From a virus, in IMG/VR virus record IMGVR_UViG_3300025120_000303, positions 1-31,230 of that record: a stretch of DNA of 31,230 nt, one strand, 5' to 3'. Numbering within the stretch: position 1 is the first letter of the stretch; every line of letters begins with the position of its first letter. The translations under genes and the position numbers were made by a program. Under the pieces are notes generated by a model. The model did not search any database and was not told the DNA's origin. It was given only the letters and a program-made list of their open reading frames with translations. Below are positions 6,669 to 31,230 of the stretch, piece by piece.

Positions 6669-7271
6669 TTATATCCCACCCATTACAGGTACCTCGTTAA
6701 ATCCTATCCAACCAGTGACAATATATTTTTCACTAGTCTGACTTACTTGTCCTTTGTGTGTATGTGTCCAATCTGCTGGCCATATTAATGTCATACCCTT
6801 TTTCGCTTTAGTATTTATCTTTTGATGTAAAAATTCTGTACCACCGTCTTCAACATCATTTAGATAAGTCATAAAAACTAAAACTCTATTACTACTTAAC
6901 TTGTTCATTCTTTCATAGTGCCATTTCTTAATACCACCACCAATAGGATAATATTGCATATTGTAGTCTTCGTAAAAATCAATATTTTCTATGTCTTCTA
7001 AACAAGGATATAGTTTTTTATATTCTTCTAAAATTTTATGTAAATACATTTCATAAGTTTCAATAGGCTCCAATGAGCCAAATGGTTTGATAATGTAATC
7101 AGTTGATTCTTTAAAATCTACATCTTCTATATGTTTATTATCTTTAATAACCATTCCCGCTTTATGTTGGTCTTTATGATTGTTGAAATATGTAATTAAA
7201 TCATCACAAACATTTTCAGGTATATCCCAACCACCAATAAAACTTTCATATGGAAAATTATGCTTTATCAT
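6669..7271 (-). CDS. 2OG-Fe(II) oxygenase (gp16/gp17-region copy 1)
   Basis: A 200-residue protein of the prolyl-4-hydroxylase-like 2-oxoglutarate/Fe(II) dioxygenase superfamily. The double-stranded beta-helix core starts at MQYYPIGGG (about 105-113). The metal site is H118-x-E120 (HYE) with a distal His in WTHTHKG (H170 or H172), and K182 is placed about ten residues later to bind 2-oxoglutarate. The use of H-x-E instead of the commoner H-x-D is retained in its paralogue at 7992-8564, so it is probably functional. It starts 14 bases inside the end of the ParB-like gene and ends two bases before gp17. The substrate is unknown; peptide hydroxylation is the usual role of this fold. Confidence 0.85.
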   Translation of the reverse strand: MIKHNFPYESFIGGWDIPENVCDDLITYFNNHKDQHKAGMVIKDNKHIEDVDFKESTDYIIKPFGSLEPIETYEMYLHKILEEYKKLYPCLEDIENIDFYEDYNMQYYPIGGGIKKWHYERMNKLSSNRVLVFMTYLNDVEDGGTEFLHQKINTKAKKGMTLIWPADWTHTHKGQVSQTSEKYIVTGWIGFNEVPVMGGI

Positions 7272-7991: not shown

Positions 7992-8564
7992 CTATTTATT
8001 AACTGTCATATTCAACCAGCCAGTTGCTATGTACTTCTCTTTGTTAGTTGATATTATACCTCTATGAGTATGTGTCCACTCTGCTGGCCACATAACTGTT
8101 AAACCTTTTTTAGCTTTAGTTTTAAAATTTTGATATAACCATTCTGTTCCGGCATCATCTACATCATTTAAGTATGTCATATAAACTATAACTCTACTTA
8201 ACTCATCAAACATATAAGAGTTTCTTTCATAATGCCAACTTTTATATCCACCACCAATTGGATAATATTGTATGTTCATTGGTAATTTTAATTGTAAAGG
8301 CATATTACAGAACTCATATTTTTTTCTATATTGCTCTACACCTATTGTTATAACTTCGTCATGGTATCTTAATACAGATGGATCTTTAGAATATGTTGGA
8401 ACAACAACATCAATAGAATCTTTTATAGACTTATCAATTCTAGTATGTTTACCAGAACCTGTATAACCTAAATCTTTTGTTTCTGTATTGTTTTTATGAT
8501 ACTCTATTAATGCGTCACAAATAGAGTCATCTTGGACTTGAAATGTATGTATAAAATTTTCCAT
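7992..8564 (-). CDS. 2OG-Fe(II) oxygenase (gp16/gp17-region copy 2)
   Basis: A 190-residue paralogue of the oxygenase at 6669-7271. The shared blocks include QYYPIGGG, SWHYERN, VYMTYLNDV, GTEWLY, KAKKGLTVMWPAEWTHTHRG and EKYIATGW. The metal site reads H111-x-E113 with a distal His at H165 or H167, and K177 is the likely 2-oxoglutarate ligand. The N-terminal third is much less similar to copy 1, so target recognition may differ. It lies between gp15 and gp16, and the two copies bracket gp16 and the ParB-like gene. No Shine-Dalgarno sequence is visible; the start follows closely after an AATAAATA element. The substrate is unknown. Confidence 0.85.
   Translation of the reverse strand: MENFIHTFQVQDDSICDALIEYHKNNTETKDLGYTGSGKHTRIDKSIKDSIDVVVPTYSKDPSVLRYHDEVITIGVEQYRKKYEFCNMPLQLKLPMNIQYYPIGGGYKSWHYERNSYMFDELSRVIVYMTYLNDVDDAGTEWLYQNFKTKAKKGLTVMWPAEWTHTHRGIISTNKEKYIATGWLNMTVNK
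7993..8000 (-). promoter_or_regulatory. Late-promoter-like element before gp16
   Basis: AATAAATA on the minus strand, one mismatch from TATAAATA, overlapping the stop of the upstream oxygenase gene. Only about five bases separate it from the gp16 ATG, so any transcript starting here would be nearly leaderless. Confidence 0.3.
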
Positions 8565-14030: not shown

Positions 14031-14046
14031 TATTTATCTATTTATT
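14031..14046 (-). promoter_or_regulatory. Two adjacent late-promoter-like elements
   Basis: On the minus strand AATAAATA (14046-14039) is followed immediately by GATAAATA (14038-14031). Both have a single mismatch, at the first base of TATAAATA. They lie just upstream of the 116-residue gene starting at 14012. One or both may start late transcripts. Confidence 0.4.
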
Positions 14047-14657
14047 CATCTTAATTTAAGGGAATATTCTAACTTTCCCAAATCACCACGAACAAAACAG
14101 TTGAAAGCTAAAGAGTATCTATGGTTGTTTGTAATATTCTCTGTGACAGAGTGTTGTAAACTAGAAGGAAATATTAAAATGTCGCCAGGTTTTACTTTAA
14201 AACATACCACCTCACTATTTACAAAGTTGTCTTCTGTGTAGTCTAATTTTATAACATCAGGCATGACAGATTTATGAAAATGATTATGAAATTTAATGTC
14301 GCCAGAATCCTCAGGAATATCTATATAATATACACCACTAACAAGTGAATTAGTATGATAGTGCATACCTGACCAATCTTTTTTATTATGTCTTACCATC
14401 CAAGAGTTAGTAAAATAAAATTCTGCTTTCTTATCTATTCTTAACCAATCTCTTACATAATTATTTACATGATCTTGTATATCATTTTTCAAGTCCATAG
14501 AATTTAAAATATATCTATCTTTAGATATATCACCATTATCAGTTTCCATTCTTTCGTACTCGCAAGTTTTACTAAACTCTAACCATTTGTCTTGCAATTC
14601 AATCCTAGACTGATACACAGGTGTTGGCCATAAGTTATGTTGAGTATAGTCTATCAT
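14046..14657 (-). CDS. 2OG-Fe(II) oxygenase, His-x-His type (PF13759-like)
   Basis: A 203-residue protein of the phage 2OG-Fe(II) oxygenase group found in many marine T4-like phages. It begins with HNLWPTPVYQSRI, the usual 'W-P-T-P-V' start. The metal region is SGMHYHTNSLVSGVYYID (about 96-113) with H99 and H101, where the classical motif would be H-x-D/E; LIFPSSLQHSV supplies distal H169, and R180 (RYSLAFN) is the likely 2-oxoglutarate ligand. The H-x-H variation is a feature of this family as I know it. Its start overlaps the end of the preceding oxygenase gene (ATGA). It is the last of four consecutive oxygenase genes. The substrate is unknown. Confidence 0.85.
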   Translation of the reverse strand: MIDYTQHNLWPTPVYQSRIELQDKWLEFSKTCEYERMETDNGDISKDRYILNSMDLKNDIQDHVNNYVRDWLRIDKKAEFYFTNSWMVRHNKKDWSGMHYHTNSLVSGVYYIDIPEDSGDIKFHNHFHKSVMPDVIKLDYTEDNFVNSEVVCFKVKPGDILIFPSSLQHSVTENITNNHRYSLAFNCFVRGDLGKLEYSLKLR

Positions 14658-15322
14658 CTTGTAGGTTGTCCATAATAGAAATGAGTTATAGTAAATTTAC
14701 CATCACTTCCACTATCAGGTTGTTTAAATTTTATTGGAGTTGATTTATGTAAAAACATTGACGGAAACAAAACTGCTCTATTGTGTTTTAGTTTAATTTT
14801 TGTATTTGATTCTTCAAACTCTAAATCGCCACCTTCAAATGATTTTGGTTCTTTTACAAACCAAATTAAATTTGTCCAATGATAAGAGTCATAATGAGAA
14901 TTATAAAAATCTTCATTGTTATAATATGATACAAAAGAAGTCATAGCGTTTGATGAAAAAAATGACCTACCATAATGACCACAATCATTTATTTTGTGAT
15001 GTAATTCTAATATTTTTTGTTTGTATGTACAAAATAATATATTTGATTGATCTCTACTTTCATCTCTATAAAGTTTATCTAAGTAATATCTATTATGTTT
15101 TCCTTTAGGTTTATCTTCAGCATCTTTAGCCACTATACCATCTTGTGCTGTTTCAATAGGATTACTTGCATAATATTCTAATTCTTTCCAAACACCCTTT
15201 TCTTCTTCAGGCGTATACCAGTTGTCTACCAAAACAAATGGAAACATTGGATTATCTTTTATTGTTCTTATTTTCCAAACTTGTTTTAAATCTCGTCTAT
15301 CTTCAAAATCAACACTAATCAT
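14654..15322 (-). CDS. 2OG-Fe(II) oxygenase, prolyl-hydroxylase-like (222 aa)
   Basis: A 222-residue member of the 2OG-Fe(II) superfamily. The core includes FVSYYNNEDFYNSHYDSYHWTNLIWFV (about 130-156), giving H143-x-D145, then GGDLEFEES, and AVLFPSMFLHKSTPI with distal H192. A basic residue near K209 in GKFTITHFYYG would bind 2-oxoglutarate. The N-terminal half (about 1-125) is an all-helical region with no recognised motif. The start overlaps the end of the previous gene by eight bases and its own stop overlaps the next start, so the cluster is translationally coupled. The substrate cannot be deduced. Confidence 0.85.
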   Translation of the reverse strand: MISVDFEDRRDLKQVWKIRTIKDNPMFPFVLVDNWYTPEEEKGVWKELEYYASNPIETAQDGIVAKDAEDKPKGKHNRYYLDKLYRDESRDQSNILFCTYKQKILELHHKINDCGHYGRSFFSSNAMTSFVSYYNNEDFYNSHYDSYHWTNLIWFVKEPKSFEGGDLEFEESNTKIKLKHNRAVLFPSMFLHKSTPIKFKQPDSGSDGKFTITHFYYGQPTR

Positions 15323-16052
15323 AAACTATTTGATCTTTGTCTTTATCTTTTTTTTCTTCTAATGTGTAGTTTTTCTTTATACTAAAAATATCTTTTGGTA
15401 ATCCTATGAATGGTCTTTTATCATAAGTAATATTATTCTTACCATCTTTCTCATTGTAATGTAAAAAGACTTGTGCGTGATTATTTCCTATCAAAGGTTC
15501 TCGCCAATGCTCTACTTCACAACCTTTATATATTATCATATCGCCTGGATTTAAATAAACAGGTATACCTGTATCACCTATCTCACCATTTTTAGGACCT
15601 ATAAACATAGGCCAATTCCAATTCTTATCTTTTAAATTTTCTGTATCATATCCCAAACACATTGTAGTTGAAATTTCGCAACTAGGTCTATCTTTATGTC
15701 TAGTTAATTCTGTTCCCTTTGTGTAAAGTCTATGATAAGAATAAGTAGGAATTAATTTTAAACCAGAACCTTCTTCTACTTTTGCTGTAATTAAAGTCAT
15801 TAATGTATCAAAAAACAAATCACCATATCTACTAAAATCACCTGGTGCTTGGTCATCAGTAAATGTACCCCATTGCTCTATATCATAATTACCATAACCT
15901 AAATGTTCATCTAATAAATTTAATCTAGTGACTGCAAACTTAATATAGTTATAGCAAAAGAATGCCATATCTTTATCAATTACTTTTTCTATTTTTACCC
16001 AACCATTATCATTAAAAAATTGAGCTGCTGGACTTATATTTTTTGTATTCAT
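15315..16052 (-). CDS. 2OG-Fe(II) oxygenase-like protein (245 aa)
   Basis: A 245-residue protein with a dioxygenase core: YSYHRLYTKGTELTRHKDRPSCEISTTM (about 104-131) supplies H119-x-D121, YLNPGDMIIYKGCEVEHWREPL (about 166-187) supplies distal H182, and NNHAQVFLHYNEKDG completes the final strands. The usual Arg or Lys for 2-oxoglutarate binding is not obvious in that last strand, where His192 and Gln194 stand instead. Related proteins with EHWREP and QVFLHY are frequent in marine phages. The first 95 residues are helical. It follows the next oxygenase gene upstream by three bases without a clear Shine-Dalgarno sequence. Confidence 0.82.
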   Translation of the reverse strand: MNTKNISPAAQFFNDNGWVKIEKVIDKDMAFFCYNYIKFAVTRLNLLDEHLGYGNYDIEQWGTFTDDQAPGDFSRYGDLFFDTLMTLITAKVEEGSGLKLIPTYSYHRLYTKGTELTRHKDRPSCEISTTMCLGYDTENLKDKNWNWPMFIGPKNGEIGDTGIPVYLNPGDMIIYKGCEVEHWREPLIGNNHAQVFLHYNEKDGKNNITYDKRPFIGLPKDIFSIKKNYTLEEKKDKDKDQIVYD

Positions 16053-16055
16053 AAT

Positions 16056-16808
16056 TTATCTAAATGGTTTACCACATATCCATAATACTAATGAATATCT
16101 AGTACCTCTTGTTATAGGTGTGACTTGATGATATGTATAAGACGGAAAAAATATTATAGAACCTTGTGGTCTTATTTCTTCGCATTCGTGGAATCTATCT
16201 CCACCTGAGTGGGGACCAAAATCAAATTTTAAATTACCACCATCATAAGCTCCTGGCTCATTTAAGTTAAGTGTCATAGATATTTTTCTAACTTTACCAA
16301 TTAGATTTTTATTTTCAGTATATTGATGACCTTCTTCTTTTTTTGTCACTCCAGGTGTAAATCTTTTATATGCTCTATTATGACACCCACCACCATCAGT
16401 ATGCCAGCCATAAAATTGTTTTACTCCATATTTTGTAAATTGTATATCTTCACCAAAGTCAATATCATACTTCCAACCAGATAAATTATTTGCCATTTTT
16501 AAAAAAGGCCATATTAAATCATAGACCCATTGATCATTAAACCAACAAGTTTCACTATCTCTTACATAAGAGTTTTTTTCAGTATCTTCAATACCCTCTT
16601 TTTTAAGTTGTTCGTGTGTTTTATCGTTTAATGGCTGTACTTCTTTAGTAAAATCTTGTTTGGCATTATTACCAAGTGTGGTAGCAGCTGTAGGTATACC
16701 TTGTTCTTTATTTTTTTTAAATATGGATTCACCATAATCAATGATGTCTTTACATTGTTTAGGCGATAAGGCACTTTTAAAAAAGTAATATGAATTACTA
16801 GGTTGCAT
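16056..16808 (-). CDS. 2OG-Fe(II) oxygenase, P4Hc type (250 aa)
   Basis: A 250-residue prolyl-4-hydroxylase-type dioxygenase with a complete canonical active site. Sequence FYGWHTDGGGCHN (about 132-144) gives H136-x-D138, SIIFFPSYTYHQVTPI gives distal H227, and RGTRYSLVLWICG gives R237 for the 2-oxoglutarate carboxylate. LNLNEPGAYDGGNLKFDFG (about 180-198) is the conserved strand between them. It resembles PKHD-type hydroxylases. It is the first of four consecutive oxygenase genes. An exact late promoter ends only about ten bases upstream of the ATG with no Shine-Dalgarno sequence, so its transcript could be nearly leaderless. Confidence 0.9.
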   Translation of the reverse strand: MQPSNSYYFFKSALSPKQCKDIIDYGESIFKKNKEQGIPTAATTLGNNAKQDFTKEVQPLNDKTHEQLKKEGIEDTEKNSYVRDSETCWFNDQWVYDLIWPFLKMANNLSGWKYDIDFGEDIQFTKYGVKQFYGWHTDGGGCHNRAYKRFTPGVTKKEEGHQYTENKNLIGKVRKISMTLNLNEPGAYDGGNLKFDFGPHSGGDRFHECEEIRPQGSIIFFPSYTYHQVTPITRGTRYSLVLWICGKPFR

Positions 16809-17328: not shown

Positions 17329-18846
17329 TTATGCTTTAACGATTATTATACCAGTACCACCTGTTGATCTAGGGTTGTCAGCAGGACCAGTTGCTTGTGG
17401 TCTTCCAGCACCACCAGATCCTCTACCATCTAAACCATCAGCAGGGAAAGTCACAGTTGGCGCAGGGTTTGGACCACCGCCTCCTGTACCACCAGCACCG
17501 TTTGCTCCAGCACCACCACCGGCGTAAACTACTGAAGTTGTTCCGTCTGCTATTGTATAAGCTTTTCCGTCACCACCATTTCCACCTGAACCTGGTTGTC
17601 CTGCAGTACCAGCGCCACCGCCGCCTCCTCCACTTGATCCACCATTGTTTCCGAAGCCATAAGCTCCTGATTGACCTGATTGAGTAGGTTGATTTGCTAT
17701 ACCAGCTGGTCCTTGTAGACCTCTACCTGATTGTCCACCACCACTTCCGGAACCTCCGGCTGTACCTGGTTGATAACCGATAATGTAAAATCCTTGTTTA
17801 CCAACACCACCACCTTTAGCAGTTAATGTTCCAAATACTGAATCTTGTCCATTTGAATATTCACCACCACCACCGACTGTGACTGATACTTGCGTACCTG
17901 GTGATACAGTAAATCCTGGAACAAATATTAATCCACCAGCTCCACCGCCACCATTATTTCCGTGTACTGCTGGGTCTGCACCTGTTGGACGAGAACCAGG
18001 ATAACCTCTTGATCCACCTCCACCAGCAATTACTAGTACATCTACTGCAGATGTTCCTGATGGAACAGCGTATTGACCAGATGCTGTTATTGTTGTAAAA
18101 CTTGGACCAACGACTGTGATTGAAAAATCTCTAAATGCAATGTTTGAGTTTGCGTCTGTTGCTTTTAGTCTAAAATTATAAACTGTATCACTTGTAGGTA
18201 AAGTACCTGAGACAGAACCAGTAATAGTTGCTCTTCCACTATCACTTGTCATTGCCAATCCTGGTGGGAAAGCACCTGATTCTAATTCAAATACTGGGTC
18301 ACTTCCTGATTCTGGGTCAGCAGCTTCTACAAGGAAAGTTCCTGATGCTCTACAACTACCTAGTGAACCAGCGTTTGTTGTAAAAGTTGGAGCGCCATCA
18401 ACATTAAGTTGATTTTCTAATACCACTGTTAAACCTGTACCATTTGTGACTGATACATCATAAGGTTCGTTAGCGTTTAAAAAGTTTGATCTAGCAGCAA
18501 CACAAGTTAATTGTGTTAAACTATCAATCGTCACAGAGTTAAATGCTACATTAGCACCACCGTTAGTAATTAATTTTGCTGTTGTACCTGAGTTAAATCC
18601 TGTACCTGTAATAACAAAACTCTTTGTTCCCGAACCATCTAATCTTTTTACAGATGTAGGAGCTATACCTGTCACTGTGGGTGGTTGAATACCTATATTG
18701 CTTGTGTTAGTTTTTCTTAATTGGTTAAGAGATGTATCATAAATTAAAACCTTATCATCATTAGCTACCTGAGATGAAGTAGGGTTTTCTGTTAGACCAC
18801 TAACCACACTTTGTTGTAAATTTGTATTTCTAATTTTTCCTGCCAT
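17329..18846 (-). CDS. Ig-like and glycine-rich adhesin / tail fibre protein (505 aa)
   Basis: A 505-residue modular protein with a short N-terminal segment (1-50), an IPT/TIG-like domain (about 54-148; PPTVTGIAPTSVKR, FVITGTGFNSGT), a cadherin or putative-Ig-like domain (about 150-247; PVFELESGAFPPGLAM, YNFRLKATDANSNIAFRDFSI), and a long glycine-rich C-terminal domain (about 250-505) with VDVLVIAGGGG, GGGGAGGLIFVPGF, VSVTVGGGG and GGGG-rich loops, ending TGIIIVKA. Glycine-rich domains of this type occur in receptor-binding adhesins such as T-even gp38 and in marine phage fibres. It is a strong candidate for a host-recognition protein. The gene ends in a terminator. AAGGAGAAAAATTATG gives a good ribosome binding site. 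Confidence 0.82.
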   Translation of the reverse strand: MAGKIRNTNLQQSVVSGLTENPTSSQVANDDKVLIYDTSLNQLRKTNTSNIGIQPPTVTGIAPTSVKRLDGSGTKSFVITGTGFNSGTTAKLITNGGANVAFNSVTIDSLTQLTCVAARSNFLNANEPYDVSVTNGTGLTVVLENQLNVDGAPTFTTNAGSLGSCRASGTFLVEAADPESGSDPVFELESGAFPPGLAMTSDSGRATITGSVSGTLPTSDTVYNFRLKATDANSNIAFRDFSITVVGPSFTTITASGQYAVPSGTSAVDVLVIAGGGGSRGYPGSRPTGADPAVHGNNGGGGAGGLIFVPGFTVSPGTQVSVTVGGGGEYSNGQDSVFGTLTAKGGGVGKQGFYIIGYQPGTAGGSGSGGGQSGRGLQGPAGIANQPTQSGQSGAYGFGNNGGSSGGGGGGAGTAGQPGSGGNGGDGKAYTIADGTTSVVYAGGGAGANGAGGTGGGGPNPAPTVTFPADGLDGRGSGGAGRPQATGPADNPRSTGGTGIIIVKA

Positions 18847-26508: not shown

Positions 26509-27969
26509 CTAAAATTCAATTATTAATTTAACATTCTCGGTTTGGTCTGAAGCTCTTGTAATAGGTGCTCTATTTTCTACATAAAGAACATCACCTGTAT
26601 CAGCATCTAACTCACCAGCATTATAACCACTAGTGAATGCAATACTATCAACTGTTGTTGAAGAAGATGATGGAGTTGAAGTGACACTAGAGCCTTGACC
26701 TGTGATTACATTCGCACCTGAAAACGCTGTGGCATTACCATTAACATCTACACCAGCATCGTTGAATCTTGTTTGTATGTAATAAAGAATATTATTTGAA
26801 CTATCCCATTCTACAACTTTACCGACTGCGCCAGTTGTTGCTTGATTAATTTCTTCATCTACAGTATAATTACCTGATGGACCACTTACTAATACAGCTT
26901 TTGTAGCTCTTACAGTAGCTGCTGTAGCGGCAGAACCACCTGACTTAGGATCTCTCATTAGTGCAACTCGTCTAAAATCATTTGCTGTTGTAAAGTCACC
27001 AGAGTTTGCTGCTTCACTAGCTTCAAAGTTAGTGTTTAACATTACATAATGTCCACCTAATTCTATAACTGCGTTTTTACCGTGTCCACCTTTTGGCTCA
27101 ATAATAACATCTAACTCAGCGCCTGATAAACTTGATGCGCCAGCTGCTATTATATCAGCAAGTCTAATAGAAGCAAAAGTATAACCTGTACCTGGAGTTG
27201 TCACAGTCACTGCTGTCACTGCGCCACCTGCTACTGTCACAGATGCAACACCACTTGCGCCATCACCTCTGATTGCAACGCCTGTATGTGTACCATTAGT
27301 ACCACCAGAACCAGCTGTTTTAATTTTAACTACATTTACAGCACCATCTACTGCTGCGGCAGCAACTGTAGAATTTGTTGCAACTGCCATGAAATCTGTT
27401 GATAGAAAGTTTGCTGCTTGAGCTGCTGATAGAGAATACATAAATTTCCATTTGTATCCATCTCCAGTTGATAGAATAGATGTTGATGTTCCAGTAGGTT
27501 CTACTGTTGAAGCAGCATTACCATTGTTATCTAAACATTTGTAAATATGATTTGCACTTGATAGTACATAAAAAGTAGCGTCAAATAAAGTAGTCGCACC
27601 ACTATTTGCTGCTTGTATTGAAGTACCACCTGTTATTCTATTTCCATAATCGTGTCTATAATAATCATAGACTGTACCTGTTGCCCAATTTCTTCTTGGT
27701 ATAACAAATGAAATATCTGAACTAGTAATTTTCTTAGCAGCCAACATATCGTCAAAATAAAAGAACTCATCTTGTATAGAATCAACTGGTGTTAAAGGAG
27801 TTGTATCAGTTCCTTCATTAGTTGTTCTTAAATCACCTCTTGTTAAAGTAGCAAAAGGTTGAGGTCTTCCTATACCCATGTAATACACATTTGCTCCAGA
27901 TTCAGTAAAAGATTCTGAAAACTGTTCTGCGTTATGTATTCTAAATTTATTTGTTATTATTGCTGGCAT
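26509..27969 (-). CDS. gp8: Baseplate wedge protein, gp8-like
   Basis: A 486-residue homologue of T4 gp8 (334). The N-terminus AIITNKFRIHNAEQF, then MGIGRPQPF and PVDSIQDEFFYFDDMLAAKKITSSDISFVIPRRNW, aligns with T4 (AIVTSKFR, ITFGRSEPW, TDSV...VIPRRDW). The C-terminus GDVLYVENRAPITRASDQTENVKLIIEF aligns with T4 GEMIYMENRPPIIMAMDQTEEINILFTF. Between them lies extra sequence, including an inserted beta module (about residues 218-300; VTVAGGAVTAVTVTTPGTGYTF). gp8 is a core component of the six baseplate wedges. A late promoter at 27986-27993 and AAGGAAAGAAAATG precede it, and the giant DUF4815 gene follows. Confidence 0.92.
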   Translation of the reverse strand: MPAIITNKFRIHNAEQFSESFTESGANVYYMGIGRPQPFATLTRGDLRTTNEGTDTTPLTPVDSIQDEFFYFDDMLAAKKITSSDISFVIPRRNWATGTVYDYYRHDYGNRITGGTSIQAANSGATTLFDATFYVLSSANHIYKCLDNNGNAASTVEPTGTSTSILSTGDGYKWKFMYSLSAAQAANFLSTDFMAVATNSTVAAAAVDGAVNVVKIKTAGSGGTNGTHTGVAIRGDGASGVASVTVAGGAVTAVTVTTPGTGYTFASIRLADIIAAGASSLSGAELDVIIEPKGGHGKNAVIELGGHYVMLNTNFEASEAANSGDFTTANDFRRVALMRDPKSGGSAATAATVRATKAVLVSGPSGNYTVDEEINQATTGAVGKVVEWDSSNNILYYIQTRFNDAGVDVNGNATAFSGANVITGQGSSVTSTPSSSSTTVDSIAFTSGYNAGELDADTGDVLYVENRAPITRASDQTENVKLIIEF

Positions 27970-28002: not shown

Positions 28003-28308
28003 TTATGGTTTCGTAGGCCATACTAAATTACTTAAATTTTCTGCTAAAGCCGAACTATCAGAAGTATCATGTTCAGCAGGTAAATTTCTAAGTTTTTCTC
28101 TATAAGCTGTCATTTCAGCAGACATTGTAAAGTCAGATAGACCCCAAATATCAGTTTCTGCTAATTTAATATTTCTTTGTTCTCTTAAATTTGCCAGAGC
28201 TCTAGTACCTGCAGCAGCAGCGTATGCCGCTTCTTCATTATCTCTAGCCGTTTCTTCGTCAGCAGTAAATTGGATTCTTACTCCATCTACTAGTTTAAAT
28301 CTTGGCAT
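28003..28308 (-). CDS. Tail fibre/tail assembly chaperone-like protein (101 aa)
   Basis: A 101-residue protein. The C-terminal half carries LREQRNIKLAETDIWGLSDFTMSAEMTAYREKLRNLPAE (about 42-80), which fits the PF16778-type pattern of phage tail assembly chaperones: R-N-x-x-L-x-x-T/S-D, a W, then an M-x-x-Y-R-x-x-L-R-x-L/I-P. In many phages such proteins are encoded next to fibre genes and help fold or assemble the fibres. Here it follows three tandem fibre-type genes and precedes gp8. Its own late promoter lies 25 bases upstream. The first 30 residues form the short strand-rich N-terminus typical of this group. Confidence 0.75.
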   Translation of the reverse strand: MPRFKLVDGVRIQFTADEETARDNEEAAYAAAAGTRALANLREQRNIKLAETDIWGLSDFTMSAEMTAYREKLRNLPAEHDTSDSSALAENLSNLVWPTKP

Positions 28309-28346: not shown

Positions 28347-29000
28347 TTACGAAAGACCATACATAGTAATAAAGCCGTCTGTATAGTTTCCTGTATCTCT
28401 AAAAAATCTTATTTTTGTTATAGCTGCCGTAGTTTCAAAATAACCACCTTGTCTATAATGGTCAGCTCTTACTGCATCGTGTACTGCAGATGATTCAAAC
28501 ATAAAATATGTTGCCATTCCTACTGTATGTGGGTCAAAAAGATGAAGTGTCATACTACCAGCAGTACTGTCTTGGTTAGCCCCCTCCATGTCAAACCCCC
28601 AAAATGTACCAGTTGTTCCACCAGAAGCACCAGCAGGAGTATAAATTTGGTGTAATTGTTGAGATGAACTTGACCCTGTTCTATTAACACCACTTTGCAT
28701 TGCTAAATTAAAGTTTGTTCCATCAGAAGAACCATTCCATTTGAAATCTGGTTCTGATGTAGCATTAGGTCTACAATTAGAAGCAACAAACATATATTCT
28801 TTGTATCCACCACTGAGAGTAAAATCTGCCTGCGTAGTGCTACTTAAAACAGCGTGAGTTATTTTAGTAAAACTACCAGGAGATGCTACTCCTGATGGTA
28901 GACTTGTAAAATTAGTCATGTTTGTATTGCTTACAACCGAAGGTAATAGTTTACCTCCACTTGATAATCCGTTAGCAAATCCTCTAGCTCTAGCTCCCAT
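28347..29000 (-). CDS. Tandem fibre-type paralogue A (217 aa)
   Basis: A 217-residue member of a local three-gene family. It shares the start MGA-x-x-R-x-x-A-N, a G-L/V motif, a T/S-S-L/I-P motif (about 33-36), a central F-K/Q-x-N/S-G/S-S unit and the ending G-N-Y-T-D-G-F-I-T-M-Y-G-L. Central residues (about 95-180) diverge strongly from the other two copies. The protein is beta-rich, with no catalytic motif, and the end pattern (G-x-I-x-L-Y-G) is familiar from marine phage fibre tips. It overlaps the upstream paralogue by one base (TAATG). Likely a receptor-binding or fibre-tip subunit. Confidence 0.75.
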   Translation of the reverse strand: MGARARGFANGLSSGGKLLPSVVSNTNMTNFTSLPSGVASPGSFTKITHAVLSSTTQADFTLSGGYKEYMFVASNCRPNATSEPDFKWNGSSDGTNFNLAMQSGVNRTGSSSSQQLHQIYTPAGASGGTTGTFWGFDMEGANQDSTAGSMTLHLFDPHTVGMATYFMFESSAVHDAVRADHYRQGGYFETTAAITKIRFFRDTGNYTDGFITMYGLS

Positions 29001-29653
29001 TATGCGTCCTGAAATCCGTAAAGTTTTATTATGCCACTAGCTATATCTCCTGAACTAGCATTAATTCTTACTGCGTTTACAGCACTTGTTGTATTAATCA
29101 TACCGTGACAATGATAGTAAAAGTTTGCTTTATCTGTTTGAAAATGTACTCCATCTACTTGAAACCCTTTATTAAATGTTGTACTTGATGGATTGTATAA
29201 CCACATATATGCGCACAGACCACTATCAGAGTCATTACCTTGAGAGTGTGAAAGTCTTTGTGGACTTGTACTGTTATGTAAATCTTTATCTGTTTCATAA
29301 CTGTATGCACTTTGTCCTGCTGTTCTACTATAAGTAGATGTTGTTGCTATCCCATAACCTGATCCACCATTGATTGATGAATTAAATTGAACATTAGCAC
29401 CATCAGTTTCAACTTTTATATTAATAAATCTTAATTGATAAGTTGGATAAGTTGCAGTTATATTAGCAGTAATATCCACATTTGTTGTATTACTTGAAAC
29501 AGTAGTTGTTGAAAGTAATTTTAGAGTACCTGATTGAATACCTGCTGGTAAAGATGATATATTTCCAAAAGATTTAGTATTATTAAAAGCACTAGCTGCC
29601 AATACGCCGCTTGCGCCTATATTATTTGCCAATGCTCTAGTGACTGCTCCCAT
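29000..29653 (-). CDS. Tandem fibre-type paralogue B (217 aa)
   Basis: A 217-residue second member of the family. It begins MGAVTRALANNIGASGVL, with a SSLPAGIQSG motif near residue 33-42, a VQFNSSINGGSGY unit near 90, and ends with TSAVNAVRINASSGDIASGIIKLYGF. The middle, with GLCAYMWLYNPSS and FYYHCHGMINTT, differs from copy A but resembles copy C in the W-L-x-x-N/M-N-P motif. It overlaps both neighbours by one base, so all three are translated as a coupled set. Fibre-tip or receptor-binding role inferred; no search done. Confidence 0.75.
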   Translation of the reverse strand: MGAVTRALANNIGASGVLAASAFNNTKSFGNISSLPAGIQSGTLKLLSTTTVSSNTTNVDITANITATYPTYQLRFINIKVETDGANVQFNSSINGGSGYGIATTSTYSRTAGQSAYSYETDKDLHNSTSPQRLSHSQGNDSDSGLCAYMWLYNPSSTTFNKGFQVDGVHFQTDKANFYYHCHGMINTTSAVNAVRINASSGDIASGIIKLYGFQDA

Positions 29654-30318
29654 TAGCTTTGATCCAATCCGTAAAGCGTTATTACGCCTGTTTGTAAATT
29701 ACCTGAGTTAGGACTTATTCTAAATCCTGTGACAGCAGAAGTTTGATTCATAAAACCATTAAACATATGTGCTATTGTTCCATCAGTTGATCCAGCAATA
29801 TCATTTATACTTCCCCAAAATCTTCCATGATAAGTTTTATATGAAGTTGTCATATGTGGATTCATAATCCATAACCAACCATTCATACATTCCTCATTAG
29901 CATTTCCTGCATCTCTAAAAAATTTATGATTTCCAGTATCGTTAGTTGCTTGATGATCTGTTCTATATTGATGTTGTCCATAAGACCCATTTTTTGAACT
30001 TAAAAATTCATTACCACCACCATACTTTGGAACATTCCAATCTGACCCATTTGATGTAGCAGAAAATTGTATGTCTGCGCCATCAGCAGATGGGTGTACT
30101 TGATTAAATGTCATTAAGTAAGCTTTGTGGGTTCCTATTGAAGTAAACTCTATTGTTGAACTATCACTACAAGTTTGTTTTTGTACTATTGTAAATGACC
30201 CACCACCAGCTCCTGGTATTGATGTGACATTGGCTAGAGAAGCATTTTCTAATACTGATCTATGTAAAACACCACCTGTTAAAACATTGAAAGCTAAATT
30301 TCTAGTTATCGCACCCAT
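29653..30318 (-). CDS. Tandem fibre-type paralogue C (221 aa)
   Basis: A 221-residue third member of the family. It begins MGAITRNLAFNVLTGGVLHRSV, with TSIPGAGGG near residue 32-40 and ADIQFSATSNGSDWNV near 86-101, and ends with TSAVTGFRISPNSGNLQTGVITLYGLDQS. It shares WLWIMNPHMTT with the corresponding motif of copy B. It starts one base after the stop of the cupredoxin-like fibre gene, so all four fibre genes are contiguous. No enzyme motif. A likely surface-exposed fibre component. Confidence 0.75.
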   Translation of the reverse strand: MGAITRNLAFNVLTGGVLHRSVLENASLANVTSIPGAGGGSFTIVQKQTCSDSSTIEFTSIGTHKAYLMTFNQVHPSADGADIQFSATSNGSDWNVPKYGGGNEFLSSKNGSYGQHQYRTDHQATNDTGNHKFFRDAGNANEECMNGWLWIMNPHMTTSYKTYHGRFWGSINDIAGSTDGTIAHMFNGFMNQTSAVTGFRISPNSGNLQTGVITLYGLDQS

Positions 30319-30319
30319 A

Positions 30320-31230
30320 TTAGTTTAACCTTAGTAATCTTATGCTAATCTCAGCAGATGCTGCTGGAGCAGTCACAAATGTTAGAGTTGTACCTGAAAC
30401 TGAATAGTCATCAGCAGGTGTCATTAATACACCATTGACTGTCACAATTAAATCGGCTGCTGTTCTTCCAGCTGCGATTGTGACTGCTACTGTTGACCCA
30501 TCACCTACTGCTGTTGTATTAGTATATGTAGCAGAACCTGATAACGGTAAATATCTAATTGAAATTTCATTACCTGCGCCTGGCGCAGCAGCAAATGTTA
30601 ATGTAGTACCTGAAATTGTATAGTCAGTAGTAGGAACGAATAATAATCCGTTTACTGTCACAATTACATCATTAACTGATCTACCAGCTGAAATAGTTGT
30701 TGTAGTTGTAGAACCATCTCCTGTAGCAGTACCATTTGAATATGTTAAGTCACCATTTGAAAATCCACCAACGACTTGTATAACATGACCCATGTATGCG
30801 TGGCTAGAACATTGATAGTATAATGTTAAAGGTGTATCTTTATCAATAACTATTTGAGTATAAGCACCACTACTTCCTGGTGTACCATTTGTAGTGACAC
30901 CTGTTGTATATGCTTCAGCTTTAGCTGGGTCTTGGTAAAATCTTAAAGGGTGTGTTGCGTTTGTATTGTTTGCTTGGTCAAATCTATATATACCTGGTGA
31001 TAATTGTAAAGCTGGACCTTGGTCACCATCTAAAACAAATTTGTTTGATGAACCTGTACCATTATAATAATGTTCTGCTGCTTGAGCGGCAACTGTCACT
31101 ACTATGGTTTTTGTAGGTGTAGCTGAAGATGATCTATGAGATATATAACCTACATCTCTAACCACTGCGTTTGCTTGGTCTAAATCTGTACCACCAGAAA
31201 ATCCTGTTAATGTAATTGTATTACCAGAAA
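30320..31230 (-). CDS. Partial fibre-like protein with cupredoxin-like domain and two Ig-like repeats
   Basis: The reading frame is open to the right edge, so the true start lies outside the window. A GTG at 31165 is only internal; in-frame codons upstream read TLTGFSGGTDLDQANAV, a normal continuation. The first domain (about 31090-30770) has a cupredoxin-like pattern: His at 30950-30952 (HPLRF), then 47 residues later Cys at 30809-30811, His at 30800-30802 and Met at 30791-30793 (CSSHAYMG), the ligand order of type-1 copper proteins. Two tandem 60-residue Ig-like modules (DGST...VNG...DY-S/T-x-SGTTLTF) follow. No signal peptide can be judged. The copper function is inferred from motif only. 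Confidence 0.72.
   Translation of the reverse strand, partial: SGNTITLTGFSGGTDLDQANAVVRDVGYISHRSSSATPTKTIVVTVAAQAAEHYYNGTGSSNKFVLDGDQGPALQLSPGIYRFDQANNTNATHPLRFYQDPAKAEAYTTGVTTNGTPGSSGAYTQIVIDKDTPLTLYYQCSSHAYMGHVIQVVGGFSNGDLTYSNGTATGDGSTTTTTISAGRSVNDVIVTVNGLLFVPTTDYTISGTTLTFAAAPGAGNEISIRYLPLSGSATYTNTTAVGDGSTVAVTIAAGRTAADLIVTVNGVLMTPADDYSVSGTTLTFVTAPAASAEISIRLLRLN
30323..30730 (-). repeat. Two tandem Ig-like modules (protein level)
   Basis: Two copies of about 62 residues at 30545-30730 and 30323-30517. Each reads G-D-G-S-T, then I-S/A-A-G-R, I-V-T-V-N-G, D-Y-S/T-x-S-G-T-T-L-T-F and E-I-S-I-R. Single relatives occur in the 80-residue protein (18858-19100) and the 2093-residue protein (about 20640-20815). 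Confidence 0.85.

Follow-up and report, generated by a model that had tools for sequence, protein, structure and literature searches.

A predicted cupredoxin domain with a type-1 copper ligand set in a gp9-like baseplate–tail fibre connector of marine phages

The protein encoded at the end of a 31,230-base virus record (IMG/VR record IMGVR_UViG_3300025120_000303, positions 1–31,230; hereafter the window) carries a domain that is predicted to fold as a cupredoxin and holds the complete His-Cys-His-Met ligand set of a type-1 copper site within a gp9-like baseplate wedge–tail fibre connector. We put a probability of about 0.7 on the overall reading that this domain binds copper, with a docking or stability role as its weaker part. 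It belongs to a marine family whose members occur in tail, fibre and baseplate proteins of phages and in bacterial proteins that are exported; the fold is known, while its location and gene context are new.

The connector protein

The gene is an ORF on the minus strand (positions 30,320–31,228) that encodes the C-terminal 302 residues of the connector and is open at the contig end, where its 5′ end is lost. Overlapping or near-identical contigs (L004 and L005) supply the missing N-terminus, MAKQ-INIGTTANDGTGSTIRAGGDL-NDNF-EIYTALGDG, which resembles that of cyanophage gp9, and give a full length of about 505–514 residues. L004 matches PHROG_677, the family of baseplate wedge tail fibre connectors, at an E-value of 1.1e-28 and PF07880, the Pfam family of the T4 gp9/10 N-terminus, at 7.6e-5 with 23.3 bits, just below the cut-off of 25. 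The gp9 of cyanophage S-CAM22 matches PF07880 at 9.8e-12 with 45.7 bits and, in the PDB, T4 gp10 (6.8e-8) and T4 gp9 (7.1e-5), the latter two over its first ~60 residues only. The gp9/10-type N-terminal domain, present in L004, lies outside the fragment in the window, where the contig ends first. Because the full-length relatives start with an N-terminus like that of T4 gp9/gp10, the window protein is classed, as judged by sequence, as a gp9-like baseplate wedge–tail fibre connector. The original prediction had spoken of a fibre protein; PHROG_677 and PF07880 make its kind more precise.

The cupredoxin-like domain comprises residues 41–153 of the fragment (30,770–31,108, minus strand). Behind it stand two short repeat modules on the same strand, one of the DYTISGTTLTF type (30,542–30,763) and one of the DYSVSGTTLTF type (30,323–30,541), both recognised by sequence and by PHROG tail-fibre families.

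The ligand residues

The putative ligands are the His of NATHPLRF (codon CAC, 30,950–30,952), the Cys (TGT, 30,809–30,811), which is the sole Cys of the domain, a second His (CAC, 30,800–30,802) and the Met as axial ligand (ATG, 30,791–30,793), all on the minus strand. They are assigned from the sequence, from the constraint in the family and from a profile alignment. They read directly as first proposed: a His, a Cys exactly 47 codons on, and from there C-x2-H-x2-M. The window domain hence features the general type-1 motif, His...Cys-(x2–4)-His-(x2–4)-Met, placed where the penultimate strand ends and in the loop behind it. A chance origin of the pattern was rejected: in a protein of the same composition (1 Cys, 2 Met and 5 His), it is expected ~1.5e-6 times per protein with the exact spacing and ~4.6e-5 times with any His–Cys spacing of 35–65, and homologues were found by tblastn. 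The spacing of 47, which had been likened to that of plastocyanin, is exact here and the commonest in the phage clade (75 of 82), but it ranges over 41–63 in relatives; it is no signature and was discarded as evidence. The invariant part of the motif is C-x2-H-x2-M together with N-x-x-H upstream.

The predicted fold

An AlphaFold2 model of the window domain, calculated from an alignment of 50 sequences—the domain itself and 49 from viral contigs—reaches a pLDDT of 93.7 and a pTM of 0.87 and features nine strands, in keeping with the strand-rich context pointed out at the start. In the model, the first His stands just before the strand 64–67, the Cys closes the strand 104–109, and the loop preceding the strand 117–121 holds the second His and the Met. 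Such a placement of the four residues relative to the strands is the canonical cupredoxin arrangement. In a Foldseek search of the PDB, all eight matches with E < 0.001 are rusticyanin, and the lower matches are mostly multicopper oxidases, copper nitrite reductases, plastocyanin and nitrosocyanin. A second AlphaFold2 model (A4), made from cellular members only with a sequence from a Flavobacteriaceae contig of 871 kb as the first, has a pLDDT of 91.9 and matches rusticyanin, nitrite reductase, laccases, AcoP and amicyanin. The mark of the cupredoxin superfamily is a Greek-key β-sandwich of seven to nine strands that matches solved cupredoxins, and as judged by both models the domain almost certainly has this fold, as had been proposed. 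The TM-scores to known cupredoxins are modest (0.45–0.57), and the rmsd is high; values of about 0.4–0.54 for the matches of the first model place the domain in a distinct branch. In BFVD, "beta-sandwich proteins" of giant viruses (Pithovirus LCPAC302/304 and Marseillevirus LCMAC201/202) match the model with a TM-score of about 0.74.

Relation to known blue copper proteins

The family profile of 181 copies was compared by hhalign with real plastocyanin and pseudoazurin family members taken from the searched bacterial genomes. The match has a probability of 95.5 and an E-value of 1.5e-8 (for a single template), and its score of 45.8 stands against a mean of 9.6 and a maximum of 21.3 in 200 column shuffles and against 14.2 for the reversed profile. 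All four residues align with the plastocyanin/pseudoazurin ligands, in agreement with the type-1 order His-Cys-His-Met of the original prediction. Masking of the ligands lowers the score to 19.3, still more than the 15.0 reached at most in 100 masked shuffles; what remains of the match comes from the strand around L-x-x-G-x-TY-x-F. It is thus mainly the ligands that carry the sequence argument, while the fold argument is largely separate. A single-sequence search of the PDB gave no match, and profile searches placed cupredoxins among the top hits, none of them significant (pseudoazurin with E-values of 0.18 and 0.11, plastocyanin with 0.24). Pfam assigned no cupredoxin family to the window protein: PF00127 (plastocyanin/azurin) did not match it, and one cellular relative reached an E-value of 0.11 and 13.4 bits against a cut-off of 21.2. 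Among the Pfam families, only PF25489 (At5g54830-like domain; E-value of 8.6e-5) gave a partial match of note, below its cut-off and with few members matching; NCBIfam gave nothing useful. In view of the drop upon masking, the nonsignificant PDB sequence searches and the lack of a Pfam cupredoxin assignment, common descent as opposed to convergence is not proven by sequence.

Rusticyanin, plastocyanin, pseudoazurin and amicyanin have the fold predicted for the window domain, the same ligand order and the same places of the ligands in strands and loop; amicyanin also has the C-x2-H-x2-M spacing. In contrast to these small blue copper proteins, the phage domain is a module of virion structural proteins and not a soluble electron carrier, its sequence lies below Pfam recognition, its copper site is predicted, and its first His is followed by Pro, not by Asn. 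A His-Pro at the first ligand is shared with multicopper oxidases and copper nitrite reductases (alignment with 6vox), which have the cupredoxin fold as well. Unlike these enzymes, the phage domain is single, with no type-2 or type-3 copper ligands seen and no catalytic site predicted.

Constraint on the ligands

The four residues are kept in 82 of 83 copies from viral contigs (the other copy is truncated), in 76 of 77 cellular copies and in 17 of 21 copies from phage records, 181 copies in total. The contig scans had partly searched for the motif itself, and three less biased samples were therefore examined. All 57 viral copies picked by the first-His motif carry C-x2-H-x2-M. Among 33 cellular copies picked by a ligand-free motif, Cys and His are present in every one and the exact set in 31; of the other two, one has Gln for Met and one a loop extended by a single residue. 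In a profile-based census of 15 complete phage genomes, 30 distinct readable copies were counted by eye: 23 with all four residues (one of them with C-x2-H-x3-M), six with none and one with the first His only. The joint presence of the ligands has a Fisher p of 1.2e-5, a value that ignores shared descent. The four residues are thus kept or lost nearly as a block. For the gp9-type domains, all four are present in 15 of 15 sampled phages of mostly different genera, with a single C-x4-H-x2-M loop. An exchange of Met for Gln and longer ligand loops are known from stellacyanin and azurin; the rare variants of the family are those that known blue copper sites tolerate. The SAR86 protein L141 (ORF residues 816–917) reads CQAHANQ, with Gln in place of the axial Met.

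In an alignment of 53 representatives with a mean identity of 36%, the ligands rank 1, 2, 3 and 5 among about 100 columns; as this ranking and the 23 complete copies of the census show, homologues do not vary freely at the Cys, His and Met. In 176 of 181 copies the domain has a single Cys, for which reason a disulfide role of this residue was rejected. Copies that lack the Cys-His-Met set occur in the same genomes, and the family profile still picks them up, an argument for a metal rather than folding as the reason why the residues are retained. In cyanophage gp7-like and neighbouring baseplate or virion proteins (L023, L022, L024, L019 and L021), ligand-less second copies adjoin intact ones—a pairing that looks like one metal site beside one bare structural module.

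Distribution

As judged by tblastn with E-values up to 1e-3, the domain occurs in 145 of 50,697 phage records, which comprise phages of Synechococcus, Prochlorococcus, Pelagibacter and Methylophilales as well as virus records from seawater. Searched by itself with tblastn, the C-terminal version of gp9 was found in 329 records, all of them cyanobacterial phages or marine virus records. A scan of viral contigs for the domain confirmed at least 563 stretches, out of 600. The N-termini ahead of the domain are diverse: gp9, gp7, the proximal long tail fibre and several fibre families. In marine bacterial and archaeal assemblies, 75 loci carry the domain; some are certainly chromosomal (contigs of 0.87–1.19 Mb), some lie in SAR86 and Actinomarina genes for proteins that are lipoprotein-like or secreted, and several others are probably phage contigs inside single-cell or metagenome assemblies. 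As a lead only, the tree speaks against a single origin in phages: it needs about 18 switches between phage and cell, at least 11 of them on well-supported branches, but some of the contigs counted as "cell", taken from single-cell and metagenome assemblies, probably belong to phages. Cellular members (L150, L131, L157, L159, L129 and L142) include lipoprotein-like proteins of SAR86, secreted proteins of Actinomarina and large repeat proteins of Bacteroidota, a widespread family of marine bacterial cupredoxins whose members no Pfam model recognised.

Proposed metal site and its possible role

On the modelled fold and the constraint on its ligands, the site is likely able to bind copper, and the mature virion probably contains copper. 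The domain would bind one copper ion. Because the particles are made in the host cytoplasm, where there is hardly any free copper, loading is likeliest mostly after lysis, from seawater or from periplasmic copper, and coordination would protect the Cys from oxidation. More speculatively, the metal may lock the loop joining the last two strands, and the locked loop would keep the outward face of the small β-sandwich rigid. This rigid face could then serve as a docking or adhesion module at the junction of fibre and baseplate or of fibre and host surface, and the ligand-free copies in the same phages would be a purely structural version of the module. We offer such a docking or stability role of the metal-bound domain tentatively, at somewhat less than even odds. 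The N-terminal domain of T4 gp9 and gp10 is homologous to that of the marine connectors (PF07880; PHROG_677), but the homology found stops after ~60 residues: the C-terminal domain of the T4 protein gave no match, and marine phages have the cupredoxin there, in the C-terminal position of gp9. This part of gp9 is what holds the long tail fibre in T4.

Virion assembly in a copper-poor cytoplasm would also suit a cupredoxin fold that is without metal in nature and keeps its ligands for structural hydrogen bonds, as would a sequence link to blue copper proteins that rests mainly on the ligands themselves. This is unlikely, however, since copies without Cys-His-Met still fit the family profile, so that the residues seem not to be needed for the fold, since ligand loss is nearly all-or-none, since the lone and nearly invariant Cys has no disulfide partner, and since the Met-to-Gln exchange and the longer ligand loops recur in known type-1 sites. 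Assembly in the cytoplasm could favour a soft metal other than copper in the virion, above all structural Zn(II) loaded at that stage. Apo azurin made in the cytoplasm of Escherichia coli can take up zinc, a precedent for such loading. Structural metals are also known in phage fibres, namely iron at the tip of T4 gp37 (cited in PMC11705849). Some cellular members of the family, on the other hand, have the look of exported proteins and would take up their metal outside the cytoplasm. Moreover, His-Cys-His-Met with a conserved Met is a copper-adapted set, and structural zinc sites rarely keep a Met; we regard zinc as quite improbable.

Copper may also be bound to a different end, as a bait for docking to copper-uptake or copper-binding proteins on the host surface, in parallel to the "Ferrojan" proposal for iron. 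The domain sits in fibre and fibre-connector proteins, several marine host groups are involved, and iron sets a precedent in marine phage fibres (PMC11705849). Against such a Trojan horse, which we rate no higher than zinc, the site is not confined to one receptor-binding tip but occurs in baseplate gp7, in gp9 and in several fibre types, and no receptor is known. T4 gp9 is not known to be a receptor-binding protein. Still less credible is an electron-transfer or redox trigger, in which reduction of the copper or oxidation of the Cys at the host surface would switch the conformation of the tail: type-1 sites are built for electron transfer and rusticyanin is the best fold match, but among the ORFs of the window there is no redox partner, domain or enzyme, fused to it or obviously next to it.

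The preferred reading, a copper-binding module for docking or stability, has its nearest published idea in the HxH motifs that bind iron in tail fibres of phages, described for T4 gp37 and Alteromonas phage R22Y in PMC11705849. There, likewise, metal-binding residues in marine phage fibres are proposed for host binding and in connection with trace metals (PMC11705849). Those sites are octahedral, consist of His only and lie in fibre shafts, whereas here a His2-Cys-Met copper site is predicted in a globular domain. In the open-access literature, the search turned up no paper that describes a cupredoxin or a type-1 copper site in phage tails, cyanophages or virions. The domain occurs in hundreds of sequenced ocean phages, and on the predicted site many marine phage particles may carry bound copper. 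If so, the tails of ocean phages that infect Synechococcus, Prochlorococcus, SAR11 and methylotrophs hold blue-copper modules, which would tie trace-metal chemistry to infection, extend the discussion of iron in phage tails to copper and open a new way to the function of gp9, gp7 and many fibre proteins that so far bear no label but "structural" or "hypothetical". More doubtful is the wider proposal that marine phage tails, including gp9 of T4-like cyanophages in general, carry functional type-1 copper centres, that copper or redox state controls fibre docking, stability or adsorption, and that the particles form a copper-binding pool in the ocean.

Neighbouring genes in the window

All further genes described here lie on the minus strand. 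A tail fibre assembly/chaperone-like protein (28,003–28,308; PHROG_4912, E-value of 4e-8), a gp8-like baseplate wedge subunit (26,509–27,969; PHROG_438, E-value of 1.1e-145) and a protein of 2,093 residues match the gene order of Pelagibacter phage Mosig. Directly downstream of the connector, three adjacent ORFs of 217–221 residues (28,347–30,318) each match PHROG_14820, a family with no assigned function, and form a tandem array of paralogues. The protein encoded at 17,329–18,846 is of virion type and has 505 residues, the C-terminal half being long and glycine-rich with GGGGAGG repeats. Amid the 31 kb of structural genes, six ORFs (6,669–7,271, 7,992–8,564, 14,046–14,657, 14,654–15,322, 15,315–16,052 and 16,056–16,808) encode putative 2OG-Fe(II) oxygenases, called by eye from patterns such as HYERMNKLSSNR and WPADWTHTHKG.
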